The translations under genes and the position numbers were made by a program. The notes beneath the pieces were generated by a model, which searched no databases, was not told the DNA's origin, and saw nothing but the letters and a program-made list of their open reading frames with translations. Shown in pieces: positions 35,205-38,742 of a stretch of 38,742 nt of DNA; the stretch's first letter is position 1; every line of letters begins with the position of its first letter. The DNA is from Verrucomicrobiaceae bacterium (GTDB lineage Bacteria; Verrucomicrobiota; Verrucomicrobiia; Chthoniobacterales; Chthoniobacteraceae): positions 1 to 38,742 of the forward strand of contig SXWH01000041.1 of the NCBI GenBank assembly GCA_005791535.1. Direction: 5' to 3'.

Positions 35205-35228
35205 TGCAATTAACGCATTTTACTTGCA
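35205..35228. promoter_or_regulatory. 24-bp imperfect palindrome, candidate operator (Fur/Zur-like)
   Basis: The site reads TGCAA-T-TAA-CGCATT-TTA-C-TTGCA, matching its reverse complement at 8 of 12 positions per half. Its right end overlaps the possible -35 element at 35224-35229, as expected for a repressor. A-T-rich dyads with TGnAA/TTnCA ends are common for Fur-family regulators, and the downstream genes point to zinc, so Zur is the leading guess. Confidence 0.4.
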
Positions 35229-35252
35229 GTAACGAAATCGCGCCTTTAATAC
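35224..35252 (+). promoter_or_regulatory. Weak sigma-70-like promoter candidate for the anchor-M cluster
   Basis: TTGCAG (35224-35229) stands 17 bases before TAATAC (35247-35252), or 15 bases before the better -10 match TTTAAT (35245-35250). Matches to consensus are only moderate. The overlap with the palindrome is what makes it worth listing. Confidence 0.3.
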
Positions 35253-35536
35253 GCGGCGCGACGATGAATGAACGAGCCACTGCCTTTGAGACCTGCTTCG
35301 GTGCGGACTTCGAGTTGTTCGGGCAGCCGGGCGGATTGGTGGTGCGAAAACCTTCTGTGCCGGTTCCGCTATTGCCGTCGGATGGCGAACTCCGTGCCAC
35401 CGCTTACGCCGGGCATCCCGTGAAAAGGGGCGGCATCGCATACGGGGCGGCGTGTGTGTCCGGCTTCTTTCCTCAAACCGGGAAAGGCGGGTGCGATTGC
35501 GCGAATTCTGTCGCATTCGGAGAGTGTCAATGCGGC

Positions 35537-36241
35537 GTGCCGATCCGCGAGCGCCGGATGACTCTTGGCTTCACGCTCATCGAGTTGCTGGTGGTCATCA
35601 GCATCATCGCGATCGTTTCTGCAATGGTCGGAGTCGCTGTCAGGAGCGTCAAAAACGGCGGACTCAAAACGAAGTCCATGGCAAACATGCGGACGATTGG
35701 GACGGCGATGATCGCATACTCCGGCGATAACAACGGAGACTTCCCGCGATCGGCCCACACGGCGGAGGAGGAGTCCTGGATTTTCTCGCTCTCCCCGTAT
35801 TTGAGCAACCTCGACGAAATCCGCGTGTGCCCGGCCGATCCGCAGGCGAAGGAACGATTGCGGGCGCGGAAAACGACGAGCTACACGCTGAACGAGTATA
35901 TTTGCGTGCCGTCGCTGGATCGCTTCGGTCGGGTGAAGGAGGACTTCACGAACCGGTTCCGCCTGCCGGTCCCTTCGCGCACGATGGCCGTCTTCATCGG
36001 CGCGGACGGGCTCGATCTCGGTATCTCGAATGATCACACGCATTCGAGGAACTGGAGCCGCTGGACGTCCGTGCTCACCGATATTCAGCCCGATCGCTTC
36101 CGTATGGGAGAGCCGTCATCGGATCGCTCCGATGGTGAATCCCACTACCTGTTCGTCGATGGTCACGTGGAGACCCATCCGGCAAAATGGCTGAAGGACC
36201 AGATCGACAGCCAGCAGAACCCGGCAATCCCGCCCAAATGA
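35537..36241 (+). CDS. Pseudopilin-like protein with prepilin N-terminus
   Basis: About 234 residues from a GTG at 35537 (or 227 from the ATG at 35558). It begins with a short basic leader, a cleavage site G|FTLIELL and the hydrophobic helix VVISIIAIVSAMVGVAV, the class III signal of type II secretion and type IV pili. The body has NMRTIGTAMIAYSGDNNGDF and ends in YLFVDGHVETHPAKW, the usual tail of PVC pseudopilins. It lacks a known partner here. The stop overlaps the start of the PEP-CTERM protein by four bases, so it belongs to the metal-related cluster, perhaps as a surface or secretion component. Confidence 0.82.
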   Translation: MPIRERRMTLGFTLIELLVVISIIAIVSAMVGVAVRSVKNGGLKTKSMANMRTIGTAMIAYSGDNNGDFPRSAHTAEEESWIFSLSPYLSNLDEIRVCPADPQAKERLRARKTTSYTLNEYICVPSLDRFGRVKEDFTNRFRLPVPSRTMAVFIGADGLDLGISNDHTHSRNWSRWTSVLTDIQPDRFRMGEPSSDRSDGESHYLFVDGHVETHPAKWLKDQIDSQQNPAIPPK

Positions 36242-37047
36242 AAGCCCGGCATTTCCTCGTTCTGTTTGCATTTGCGCCGGTGCTGACCGCCGCCGTGCTG
36301 GACGTTCAACACGCGGACATCAGCGTGAATTTTAACGCGTCCCTCATGGGCAGCGCCACGAATCCCTGGCGTCTCACCGTTCGCGATGAAGACGGACGGA
36401 TTGAGTACGGCGGGCGGCGCGTCGCAACGCCGGATCAAATCCAGGTCGTGCTCGATGCGCTGGAAGCTTCGAAAGTCGAGGTGCCGGATGACTCGCGCTA
36501 CGCGTTTCTCGGTCCGGCGGGTCGCGAAGTATACATCCTGCCGCAGACGCAGGAAACCGGCATGCTGTTCCTCGGCACGTCGTCGGAAAACAAGACTGCC
36601 CAGGCCGGATGGCAGGGTGTGGGAGTTCAGTCGAACCTGCTCGTGAGAGGCTTTGCGTCGGGTGTGTTTCAAAGCAACCGCGTCAACCTGCGGCTGGAGA
36701 CTTTCTCCGGTCCGGGCGCCTTCTTCCTCTATTCCACAAATGCGTTCGGAGACCCGACGGTGTTCTACGACACGGCCGGCGGGCTCTCGCTCGATGACAA
36801 CCGGCAGATGTCCCCGGCAAACCACTCGCACTTCAACTGGGCTTTCACCGAGCCCGGTGAATACACGCTCGGGCTCCGCGCATCGGCGACCACCGCGGGC
36901 GGAACTTTCACGCAGAGCGACGTCACCGAGTTCACGTTCCGCGTGATTCCGGAGCCATCGTCTGCCGCGCTGCTCGTGCTCTCGGGATTCGCCCTGTTGT
37001 GCCGCCGCTTTCGCTCCCGGGACCTCGAAACAAACAAAACATCATGA
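36238..37047 (+). CDS. PEP-CTERM-anchored surface protein of choice-of-anchor M type
   Basis: A 269-residue exported protein. A signal peptide (MKARHFLVLFAFAPVLTA) is followed by VLDVQHADISVNF, YAFLGPAGREVYILPQ and GMLFLGTSSE, then the signature H196-S-H198-F-N-W201-AFTEPGEYTL. The C-terminus is a PEP-CTERM tag: VIPEP, a membrane helix and an RR cluster, which an exosortase would process. In actinobacteria, proteins with the HxHxNWxFxxPGxY unit accompany metal ABC transporters. The two histidines suggest metal binding; this is inference. It is coupled by four-base overlaps to the genes on both sides. Confidence 0.82.
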   Translation: MKARHFLVLFAFAPVLTAAVLDVQHADISVNFNASLMGSATNPWRLTVRDEDGRIEYGGRRVATPDQIQVVLDALEASKVEVPDDSRYAFLGPAGREVYILPQTQETGMLFLGTSSENKTAQAGWQGVGVQSNLLVRGFASGVFQSNRVNLRLETFSGPGAFFLYSTNAFGDPTVFYDTAGGLSLDDNRQMSPANHSHFNWAFTEPGEYTLGLRASATTAGGTFTQSDVTEFTFRVIPEPSSAALLVLSGFALLCRRFRSRDLETNKTS

Positions 37048-38465
37048 AACTAAAATCCATCATCGCAACAGCAGCCCTCGCGGGCTTTTCACTCACACAG
37101 GCGGCCGCAGCGCCGACGATCTTTTCGCGTGGCCACACGGACGTAGGCATCGCGTTTGAAGACGGCGCATTTGATCTTCACGTCCACTCGGAGGAATTCG
37201 GACTGGAAGCCGAGTCCGCGTCGGACGTGCTCCGCGTCCTGCCGGCTGCGCAAAACTCCATTCCGGGCAATCCGGCGTTCTCCTTCCTCGGGCCTTCCGG
37301 AAATCCGGTGTGGATCCTTCCGCAGGACGGTGGCGACGCCGAAGCCGCGGGGCTTCTGTTTCTCGGCATCGGCTCGGAGGAAATCGCGCCCGGTACTTTC
37401 TCCGGCGACCTGTCGATGGCTCTCACAAACGTCGCATTCACTCCGGAGCCCGGATTTGCGCCGTTTGGGCAATTCGCCGTTTTCACCGTCAATAGCGGCG
37501 GCGCTCCCACGGTCCTGATGAGCACCCACGATGGCATCGATTCATCCGACGCCGCCACCGTCACTCCCGGCGGCCACATGCACGTGAACTGGGCGTTCAC
37601 CCAGCCCGGCCGCTACGTCGTCACCTTTGCCGTGACGGGCACCCCGACCGGCGGTTCGCCTGTCACCGCCTCGGCGTCCTACACGTTTGTCGTCAAATCG
37701 TGGGAGTCGGAAACTGACACGCAGGTGCAGTCTGGTGAACCCATCGCGGTGGGTGTTGGCGCTGCGCTCCTTTCCTCGCTGTCGCCGATTGTCGTGGCTC
37801 CCGATCAGAGCGGCTTGTTTTTCGCGACGCTCAAAAAGTTCGGCGCAAACACCGCGCTGATCACTCCCGCGAATGACCGCGCGCTTCTCCGCGTCAGCGA
37901 ATACGTCCCGGCGATTCTCGCCCGCGAGGGCGATGAAGTTCCCGCGATTCCCGGCTCGAAGATCAAGTCGTTCACCGATGCCAACGCGAGCGTCGACGGA
38001 ACGATCCTGGTAAATGCCACGCTCCTTTCCGGCGTCGCCGGTGTCGTGCCGGCAAACGACCTCCTCCTCGCCATCGTCACGCCGGGCGGCCTCGTGCCGG
38101 TCGTTCGGGAAGGCGATCCGGTCTCCACGCTTCCGGGATACAATTTCCTCAGCTTCACCAGCTACCTGCCGGCCGACAACGGTCACGTCATCGGCGTCGC
38201 CACCGTGCGCAACGCGATCGAGAAAAAGAACAAGACCATCGTATTCCGCGGCGCACCCGGCGCGGCTCCGACGATTCTCGCAGCCACCGGAGAACCGCTC
38301 CTCACCGATGCCGGCACGCTCGTCGTGAAATCCATCGCGCGCCCCACGCGCTCAAACCAGCCCTTCGGCCACACCGCAAACGGCTGCATCCAGATGCTCA
38401 TCGGCTTCACCGATGGCAGCAGCCAGCACGTCCGCTTCGCAGCACCTCCGCTCCTGCTCGAATAA
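37044..38465 (+). CDS. Unanchored choice-of-anchor M protein with a beta-rich C-terminal domain
   Basis: A 473-residue exported protein (signal ending near TQAAAAAP). The N-terminal 215 residues parallel the preceding gene: RGHTDVGIAFEDGAFDLHVH, FSFLGPSGNPVWILPQDGG, AGLLFLGIGSEE and H178-M-H180-V-N-W183-AFTQPGRYVV. After residue 230 comes a different beta-rich domain with repeated elements (REGDEVPAIPGSKIKSF and REGDPVSTLPGYNFLSF), like the propeller-type repeat domains of PVC bacteria. It has no PEP-CTERM tag, so it is likely free or bound to its anchored partner. A hairpin follows, then a COG0523 GTPase gene. Confidence 0.8.
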   Translation: MKLKSIIATAALAGFSLTQAAAAPTIFSRGHTDVGIAFEDGAFDLHVHSEEFGLEAESASDVLRVLPAAQNSIPGNPAFSFLGPSGNPVWILPQDGGDAEAAGLLFLGIGSEEIAPGTFSGDLSMALTNVAFTPEPGFAPFGQFAVFTVNSGGAPTVLMSTHDGIDSSDAATVTPGGHMHVNWAFTQPGRYVVTFAVTGTPTGGSPVTASASYTFVVKSWESETDTQVQSGEPIAVGVGAALLSSLSPIVVAPDQSGLFFATLKKFGANTALITPANDRALLRVSEYVPAILAREGDEVPAIPGSKIKSFTDANASVDGTILVNATLLSGVAGVVPANDLLLAIVTPGGLVPVVREGDPVSTLPGYNFLSFTSYLPADNGHVIGVATVRNAIEKKNKTIVFRGAPGAAPTILAATGEPLLTDAGTLVVKSIARPTRSNQPFGHTANGCIQMLIGFTDGSSQHVRFAAPPLLLE

Positions 38466-38477
38466 ACACACAACCCC

Positions 38478-38514
38478 GGAGCGCGCGGGCACCCTGGGCG
38501 GGCTCGCGCGCTCC
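38478..38514 (+). terminator. GC-rich hairpin, possible terminator or attenuator
   Basis: A perfect 10-bp stem, GGAGCGCGCG (38478-38487) with CGCGCGCTCC (38505-38514), has a 17-base loop and starts 12 bases after the stop codon. The run of seven T is 26 bases further on (38541-38547), just before the next ATG, so it is not a classical terminator; partial read-through into the GTPase gene is plausible. Confidence 0.45.
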
Positions 38515-38552
38515 GTCCCTCCCGGCACGCCGCCCGCAGCTTTTTTTAAATC

Positions 38553-38742
38553 ATGAGCAAACTACCAGTCACCGTCCTCTCCGGCTTTCTCGGCGCGGGG
38601 AAAACCACGCTTCTCAACCACATCCTCAACAACCGCGAAGGCAAACGCGTCGCCGTCATCGTCAATGATATGAGCGATGTGAACATCGACGCCGCACTCG
38701 TCGCCAACGGCGGCGCAGCGCTCTCACGCGCCGAGGAAAAAC
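38553..38742 (+). CDS. COG0523/CobW-family metal GTPase (5' part only)
   Basis: The first 63 codons are present before the window ends. They show Walker [10 protein letters not shown] (residues 11-19), the [13 protein letters not shown] switch segment and [11 protein letters not shown], all typical of COG0523 G3E GTPases (YjiA/ZigA/YciC/CobW). These proteins use GTP to deliver metal ions, often zinc, to target enzymes, and many are induced by zinc shortage. The diagnostic CxCC metal motif would lie a few residues beyond the edge. Position behind two presumed metal-binding surface proteins fits a zinc role. Confidence 0.9.

Follow-up and report, generated by a model that had tools for sequence, protein, structure and literature searches.

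A putative zinc-capture operon pairing a pseudopilin with choice-of-anchor M proteins in a Verrucomicrobiaceae bacterium

The locus and its genes

The stretch of DNA analysed here (the window) is contig SXWH01000041.1 of the Verrucomicrobiaceae bacterium assembly GCA_005791535.1, 38,742 nucleotides long. It is an entire contig, one of the 294 in the assembly, and its end falls inside the last of four consecutive genes, which encode a prepilin-like protein (pseudopilin), two secreted choice-of-anchor M (anchor-M) proteins and a ZigA-type G3E GTPase. We consider it probable that this row is a zinc-starvation operon, which captures scarce zinc outside the cell. The features, all on the plus strand, are the following:

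35206 to 35231 (+): candidate Zur-type operator, core 35213-35230 (ACGCATTTTACTTGCAGT); 24 of its 26 bases are kept in the same-genus genome G007, and it resembles a site before znuA
35342 to 35557 (+): N-terminal extension of the pseudopilin, a long leader that carries CxC-x8-CxC; open frame, partly conserved in G007, start uncertain, GTG at 35342 proposed
35558 to 36241 (+): prepilin-like protein (pseudopilin), with a GFTLIELL methylation motif and a C-terminal SHYLFVDGHVE motif; TIGR02532 and PF07963 over cut-off
36238 to 37047 (+): choice-of-anchor M protein 1 (anchor-M-1), with a signal peptide (by eye), an anchor-M domain and a PEP-CTERM tail; NF038134 E 6.5e-35, TIGR02595 over cut-off
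37044 to 38465 (+): choice-of-anchor M protein 2 (anchor-M-2), with a signal peptide (by eye), an anchor-M domain at residues 27-217 and a C-terminal part of about 250 residues; NF038134 E 9.1e-34
38553 to 38742 (+): start of a ZigA-type G3E (COG0523) GTPase gene, 63 codons up to the contig end; NF038288 E 6e-32, PF02492 70.3 bits

The gene order and the families are directly established. As stated in a preliminary description made from the sequence alone, the first three genes are joined by ATGA overlaps: the stop codon of the pseudopilin gene (TGA, 36239-36241) overlaps the ATG of anchor-M-1 at 36238, and the stop of anchor-M-1 (37045-37047) overlaps the start of anchor-M-2 at 37044. The GTPase gene follows without overlap, after a gap of 87 bases, and runs off the window. 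The HxHxNWxF-PGxY signature described for both secreted proteins is indeed found in each of them (HSHFNWAFTEPGEY; HMHVNWAFTQPGRY), and the fourth gene does encode a G3E metal GTPase, the 63-codon piece matching ZigA (NF038288) best. The proposed combination of a pseudopilin with a PEP-CTERM anchor holds for the pseudopilin (TIGR02532) and, by TIGR02595 only, for the first secreted protein; the second one gave no PEP-CTERM match.

Conservation of the locus and of its neighbourhood

In G007, a genome of the same genus, the locus is intact. The order there is TonB receptor, gene of no assigned family, pseudopilin, anchor-M, anchor-M, ZigA, ExbB, ExbD/TolR-like, TonB-family and radical-SAM-like. 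Since the same order recurs in this relative (locus L148) and the first three proteins are 77-82% identical to those of the window, the gene arrangement is not a matter of chance. The G007 ZigA protein scores 649 bits with NF038288, over the cut-off of 600, and the window piece of 63 residues scores 111 bits. A matching remainder of the GTPase (311 residues, with matches to cobW and CobW_C) lies at the end of another contig of the same assembly, C116 (locus L007, 3668-4603, minus strand). It is 96.8% identical to residues 106-416 of the G007 protein, the window piece being 95% identical to residues 1-63, and about 42 codons lie between the two pieces. Metal transport genes, which had been suggested as a check downstream, are present in relatives, as with the TonB system of G007, and absent from the scanned C116 frames beyond the ZigA piece; these encode a helix-turn-helix protein, a DUF2695 protein and two proteins without family. 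Elsewhere, the genome carries ZnuA genes on contigs C10 and C285, and on C66 a gene for a Fur-family protein 80% identical to the product of the Fur gene within the anchor-M locus of genome G020.

The NF038134 family is present in 18 of 147 relatives and in 28 of a sample of 387 genomes across the phylum, the window's own genome being counted in both. For each of the other genomes, the DNA flanking one or more of the matches was collected, up to 10 kb in either direction, giving 53 loci, together with 20 control windows from the same genomes. Genes were called by a custom script and labelled with profiles built on clusters of the same loci, of which only representatives were checked against Pfam and NCBIfam. 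Seven of the 53 loci (L058-L061, L125-L127) were taken for weak matches to a sister module described below and hold no anchor-M gene by profile; they account for four of the 13 TonB-receptor loci and seven of the 40 pilin loci. Contig C116 and some weak second matches of genomes were left out of the neighbour counts. A second set of 78 named loci came from the best 80 tblastn matches of 401 relatives; nine of these (1 of 32 non-actinobacterial and 8 of 46 actinobacterial) have no anchor-M label despite the tblastn match. Locus L148 of the named set is the same as L044 of the first set, hence the two sets are not independent.

Conservation of the neighbourhood, which had been set beforehand as a test, is directly observed: ZigA, Fur, ZnuA, ZnuD-like receptors and ExbB/ExbD/TonB-like genes adjoin the same genes in relatives. 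Among the 53 loci, anchor-M was found in 46, pilin in 40, G3E in 16, TonB receptor in 13, Fur in 10, ZnuA in 5 and ExbB in 5, as compared with 0, 4, 0, 2, 0, 1 and 1, respectively, of the 20 control windows. The 46 anchor-M loci of Verrucomicrobiota include 33 with a pilin, 16 with G3E, 10 with Fur, 9 with a TonB receptor, 5 with ZnuA and 5 with ExbB; at least one of G3E, Fur, ZnuA and TonB receptor lies within about 10 kb in 23 of them, versus 2 of the 20 controls. A pilin gene is the direct same-strand neighbour of anchor-M in 28 of these 46 loci (pilins make up 6 of 360 control genes), and tandem anchor-M pairs occur in 22. In the named set, a pilin is present in 23 of 32 non-actinobacterial versus 0 of 46 actinobacterial loci and, in those labelled with anchor-M, directly adjacent to it in 21 of 31 versus 0 of 38; the corresponding numbers of loci (out of 32 versus 46) are 7 and 28 for ZnuA, 7 and 19 for G3E, 4 and 13 for Fur, and 2 and 0 for TonB receptor. 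The pilin partner also occurs in one record of Armatimonadota (L189, Fimbriimonadaceae) and in one of Planctomycetota (L221, Isosphaeraceae); Planctomycetota record L225 has no pilin partner. The receptors at L042 and L115 match ZnuD (NF038289) with E values of 2e-92 and 5e-78, although their scores of 311 and 264 bits are far below the cut-off of 950.

Other genes recur around these loci. A fused MFS/spermidine-synthase-like protein (cluster c5, of which one member was scanned) is encoded in 9 of the 53 loci, eight of them with anchor-M (L102, L107, L108, L111, L116, L118, L123, L124) and one, L061, with the sister module; a link to metallophore synthesis is possible. A protein of about 190-250 amino acids (cluster c17) is found at L042 (2380-3030), L054 (10256-10912), L099, L110, L116 and L123, the one member scanned giving no Pfam family. 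Finally, a gene for a WD40-type protein follows that of the G3E GTPase at L042 (3027-4058, by similarity) and L054 (14751-15815, by Pfam).

A distinct pseudopilin

The window pseudopilin has a recognisable prepilin N-terminus (26.5 bits with TIGR02532, cut-off 16.3; 25.1 with PF07963, cut-off 21.2). It scores 28.7 bits with GspG (TIGR01710, the major pseudopilin of type II secretion), under the cut-off of 88.85, and likewise fails to reach that of GspH; nor does it reach those of H-X9-DG-CTERM (TIGR04294, 13.8 bits versus 19) and DUF1559 (PF07596, 20.6 versus 23.3). The gene probably starts near 35342, earlier than first assumed, because the frame is open upstream of 35558 and this stretch is partly conserved in G007 (77 of 109 bases, E 3e-11; 57% identity over 69 residues at the protein level, E 7e-21). 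Four cysteines are found in the extension of both genomes, spaced as CxC-x8-CxC in the window and CxC-x7-CxC in G007. Among 10 genomes of the genus, the extension is clear only in the window's own genome (G000) and in G007, with a weak match in G005 (E 0.006); these same two are the only genus genomes with anchor-M matches at E values up to 0.001.

Within its own genome, the window pseudopilin is distant from the other pseudopilins found: a search with the protein returned itself at 512.5 bits and 13 other matches, the best of them at 49.8 bits. Its orthologue in G007 scores 436.6 bits (about 83% identity), and G007, which has anchor-M, is the one other genus genome with such a close orthologue. 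In three further genomes of the genus, the nearest pilin is 35-37% identical and is followed in each case by a protein of the fam4 type.

Members of fam4 are distantly related, histidine-containing proteins, which the anchor-M profile also matches weakly. The sister module consists of a pseudopilin and such an HDHV-type secreted protein, mostly accompanied by a PEP-CTERM protein (fam10); with or without fam10 it is present in L055 (7575-9741), L057 (4618-6826), L058-L061 and L125-L127, as well as in L255-L257. TonB receptors (L060, L125-L127), a Rieske-like gene (L061) and, by eye, arsenic-related-looking genes (L058, L059) neighbour the module. In L257 it adjoins a CusA/CzcA-family pump, which is over its cut-off. 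The sister module suggests that the pilin partnership concerns metal capture in general, copper being only a guess; two of six control pilins, which adjoin a PEP-CTERM-like protein, count against such a link.

The strongest alternative accepts a zinc locus but regards the pseudopilin as no special partner: Verrucomicrobiota pseudopilins would travel with any PEP-CTERM protein as part of a general secretion habit. We rate this as a serious possibility, if somewhat short of an even one. The 13 further pseudopilin-like matches in the genome would be expected under such a habit, as would the PEP-CTERM-like neighbours of the two control pilins and the related module fam10-pilin-fam4, in which a pilin occurs without an anchor-M gene. 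A general habit would account less readily for the adjacency of pilin and anchor-M in three phyla (Verrucomicrobiota, Armatimonadota and Planctomycetota), for the restriction of the close orthologue to the one other genus genome that has anchor-M, the next three pilins standing beside fam4-type proteins, or for the metal pump beside one sister module.

The anchor-M proteins

Both secreted proteins are clear members of the choice-of-anchor M family (NF038134, cut-off 55), with scores of 120.8 bits for anchor-M-1 and 117.1 bits for anchor-M-2, and both exceed the cut-off of 30.9 for TIGR03769 (48.4 and 46.4 bits). They do not reach the cut-offs of the related TIGR03772 and TIGR03773 (350.45 and 190.3), their best scores being 68.4 and 88.6 bits. 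The PEP-CTERM tail of anchor-M-1 is recognised by TIGR02595 (18.7 bits versus 16) but not by PF07589 (14.9 versus 20.7); no PEP-CTERM match was listed for anchor-M-2 in the family scans of the window proteins, and no Pfam family was over its cut-off in this protein. Its C-terminal part of about 250 residues (37700-38465) is without known family; the protein as a whole is 77% identical in G007. In other loci, too, long partners without PEP-CTERM adjoin short PEP-CTERM anchor-M proteins.

In 74 aligned proteins, the first motif keeps its histidine in 62 of 72 and its aspartate in 68 of 73, and the two histidines of HxH are kept in 73 of 74 and 72 of 73. Because these ligand-like residues are conserved, the HxD and HxHxN motifs are predicted to form the metal site. 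An AlphaFold2 model of anchor-M-1, built with 36 sequences, consists mostly of strands (mean pLDDT 87.5); the weak matches that it gave in a fold search were mostly to beta-sandwiches, and a sequence search against solved structures returned two matches at chance level.

It might be argued that the anchor-M proteins are regulated by zinc without supplying it, and act instead as adhesins, zinc-sparing substitutes or toxic-metal buffers. Zinc-regulated, sortase-anchored proteins of Corynebacterium diphtheriae are indeed described as having no known function (PMC6711530), and the strand-rich model, with its weak beta-sandwich matches, recalls a fold common in adhesins. The recurrent neighbours are nevertheless uptake genes (TonB receptor, ExbB/D, TonB, ZnuA, ZigA) and few positions are as well conserved as the ligand-like residues, which makes this explanation an unlikely one.

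A znuA-like site upstream of the operon

The 26-base island at 35206-35231 stands out between the window and G007 within DNA that is otherwise poorly alignable. Two ZnuA genes are present in each of the two genomes, and a similar inverted repeat precedes one of them; this likeness of the operator-like site to that of znuA is directly observed. The pattern ACGCAW-N5-TTGCANT was derived from a group of sites to which that of the window belongs; it has 11 sites in 11 genomes (seven genomes with a site, four without), the reversed-pattern control giving 4. Of these 11 sites, five precede a called znuA start by 17-28 bases and two lie before the pseudopilin/anchor-M operon; three of the znuA sites (G001, G006 and G008) were not used in drawing the pattern. 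The window's genome has two pattern sites, before the operon and before znuA, and G007 has the same pair. When a matrix is made exclusively from the five znuA sites, the site in the window ranks fourth and the G007 site 16th among the 258,190 positions covered in DNA of the two genomes, and all of those positions are outscored by the best site within 250 bases upstream of the G020 pseudopilin. The znuA-like site, together with the Fur-family gene 80% identical to that of the G020 locus, provides moderate evidence for putative Zur control of the operon.

Two other candidates were dropped. The fixed palindrome AATGC-N7-GCATT occurs at six places in the genome, one of them upstream of the operon, versus two for the reversed control. 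A general palindrome search across the loci, judged by eye, gave no motif common to all families, the genus-level znuA-like site alone surviving. Separately, in three genomes, at L046 (10985-11080), L047 (9007-9101) and L049 (9015-9111), fur and a G3E GTPase gene diverge from a region that contains a 24-base palindrome (AGTATCAGTTTTAAATCTGATATT, 10 of 12 pairs), which is likely to be a metalloregulator operator.

Zinc or another metal

The zinc reading gains support from the intact G007 locus, the neighbour counts, the znuA-like site and the adjacency of the pseudopilin. Capture of zinc at the surface of a Gram-negative cell, as first suggested, is thereby strengthened by the metal neighbours in relatives and by a znuA gene of the same genome with a similar upstream site, though the metal could still differ.

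Several observations weigh against this reading. None of the four metal neighbours was found in 23 of the 46 anchor-M loci, some of which are cut by contig ends, and the scanned C116 frames other than the GTPase piece gave no transport family. The TonB receptor of G007 best matches siderophore receptors (below cut-off) rather than ZnuD, and two other scanned G3E proteins near anchor-M are far below the ZigA cut-off. As to the upstream site, the pattern was drawn in part from the window itself, 4 of the 11 pattern sites lie elsewhere, G020 has no exact match, and, of the bases that the znuA consensus specifies, two differ in the window site and one in the G007 site; by chance, about 0.02 sites scoring at least as well as that of the window are expected in the 607 bases upstream, which is not vanishingly few. 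The fold search of the anchor-M model against solved structures gave no match at E <0.001. Lastly, the pseudopilin is tied to anchor-M as a gene partnership, without direct link to export; what is supported is the partnership and not a mechanism.

A metal other than zinc, such as copper, iron or cobalt, would be compatible with part of these data, as G3E GTPases, Fur-family regulators and TonB receptors are not confined to one metal. The siderophore-type match of the G007 receptor, the inverted repeats resembling Fur boxes by eye that precede anchor-M in another family, and the CusA/CzcA-family pump beside a sister module all point in this direction. They are opposed by the G007 GTPase, which is over the curated ZigA cut-off, by the ZnuD-like receptors and ZnuA in several loci, by the likeness of the operator-like site to the one before znuA, and by the zinc and Zur regulation of actinobacterial members (PMC6711530), so that we regard another metal as quite improbable. 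That the four genes are neighbours by accident is scarcely credible, for although gene order varies and none of the four metal markers lies within about 10 kb in half of the anchor-M loci, the ATGA overlaps, the repeated order and the neighbour enrichment relative to controls argue otherwise.

A proposed model for zinc capture

If the operon serves zinc capture, the following scheme may be proposed. At low zinc, a Zur-type repressor would leave the candidate operator at 35206-35231. The two anchor-M proteins would be exported by Sec, the PEP-CTERM/exosortase system sorting one of them to the envelope and the other going without a tail. They would bind zinc, the conserved HxD and HxHxN motifs probably providing the ligands, and deliver it to a TonB-dependent receptor energised by ExbB/ExbD/TonB. 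Transport across the inner membrane would fall to ZnuABC, and ZigA would allot the metal in the cytoplasm. The pseudopilin may be a dedicated helper that passes anchor-M across the outer membrane by means of a machine resembling type II secretion or the type IV pilus. This is the weakest step of the scheme, and delivery of the type II secretion kind is the version that we favour. Further downstream in G007, minor-pseudopilin-like, unassigned, GspK-like and PilM-like genes are found, all named matches being below cut-offs; at L044 (12816-16498) the minor-pseudopilin-like, GspK-like and PilM-like genes lie about 2-6 kb downstream of the tonB-like gene.

It is tempting to speculate further, albeit with considerable doubt, that in diderm bacteria of the Planctomycetes-Verrucomicrobia-Chlamydiae (PVC) group and their allies secreted metal-capturing proteins regularly have a pseudopilin dedicated to them, with the anchor-M module for zinc and the sister module of pilin and HDHV-type protein for another metal, perhaps copper. 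The pseudopilin might then be a piston or scaffold, specific to its cargo, by which the binders reach the surface, and the long cytoplasmic CxC-CxC leader seen in the genus may sense or carry metal before cleavage. Should the sister module serve another metal, a single export principle would apply to several metals.

In our judgement, the passage of zinc across the outer layers of diderms outside the Proteobacteria is poorly known. Choice-of-anchor M is widespread, but its function is unproven; this locus connects the domain with zinc supply in a second envelope type. It also offers a testable case of a one-cargo pseudopilin, which bears on the question of why these genomes hold so many pseudopilins.

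Comparison with known systems

The ZigA-ZnuD-ZnuABC set constitutes the zinc-starvation response of Gram-negative bacteria. Loci of the window type share with it the GTPase family and the classes of receptor, substrate-binding protein and regulator; that set is not known to include a pseudopilin or proteins for capture at the surface. The pseudopilins of type II secretion and the H-X9-DG/DUF1559 proteins of PVC bacteria share a prepilin N-terminus and a C-terminal DGH motif with the window pseudopilin, which differs from them in falling below the GspG, GspH, TIGR04294 and PF07596 cut-offs and in its long Cys-containing leader. Searches of the open-access literature, mostly at listing level, gave no recognised account of a pseudopilin-linked zinc locus, and no paper was found there that brings together pseudopilin, PEP-CTERM and zinc; choice-of-anchor M and zinc were found together in a single paper.

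The secreted proteins have closer parallels. Like the window, the actinobacterial anchored-repeat zinc ABC cluster (TIGR03769/TIGR03772/TIGR03773; dip0438-dip0444 in C. diphtheriae) has the anchor-M family on tandem secreted surface proteins. The association of anchor-M with metal ABC transport in actinobacteria, invoked in the preliminary description, is borne out in C. diphtheriae, where zinc and Zur repress the anchored-repeat ABC cluster together with surface-anchored proteins to which the study assigns no known function (PMC6711530). In C. glutamicum, the Zur regulon is reported to include a COG0523 GTPase and a secreted protein besides the znu operons (PMC2823685). In Cutibacterium acnes, genes for a choice-of-anchor M protein, a TIGR03773 protein, a metal ABC permease and the ribosomal proteins L28 and S14 shift in concert, a set that the authors connect with zinc; the RNA-seq shifts, as reported, were borne out by quantitative PCR only in part, which tempers this parallel (PMC10045295). 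The metal neighbours of the 46 actinobacterial loci (ZnuA-type substrate-binding protein in 28, G3E GTPase in 19, Fur in 13) resemble those of the Verrucomicrobiota loci. The actinobacterial cluster differs in that sortase anchoring is reported for it (PMC6711530), and in that neither a pseudopilin nor a TonB receptor was found by profiles in any of the 46 loci.

The exoprotein ZepA of Anabaena is a Zur-regulated PEP-CTERM protein that binds zinc (PMC10957091). As described there, it is a secreted diderm PEP-CTERM protein with a predicted immunoglobulin-like sandwich domain, and as such comparable to the window set; ZepA genes lie near COG0523, TonB receptor, ZnuA and Fur genes, including in PVC bacteria, which are neighbours like those of the window family (PMC10957091). 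Compared by motif and description, the two differ: the ZepA motif H-x2-9-H-F/Y-H is absent from both window proteins, so that their membership of ZepA is unsupported. By plain pattern search, the motif occurs in 3 of 260 anchor-M proteins, and among PEP-tailed proteins of 150-450 amino acids two match it, neither of them anchor-M. The word 'pilin' is absent from the main text of the ZepA paper (PMC10957091). The zinc regulation of anchor-M proteins in actinobacteria and ZepA in other diderms were thus known already, and it is the partnership with a pseudopilin that looks new.

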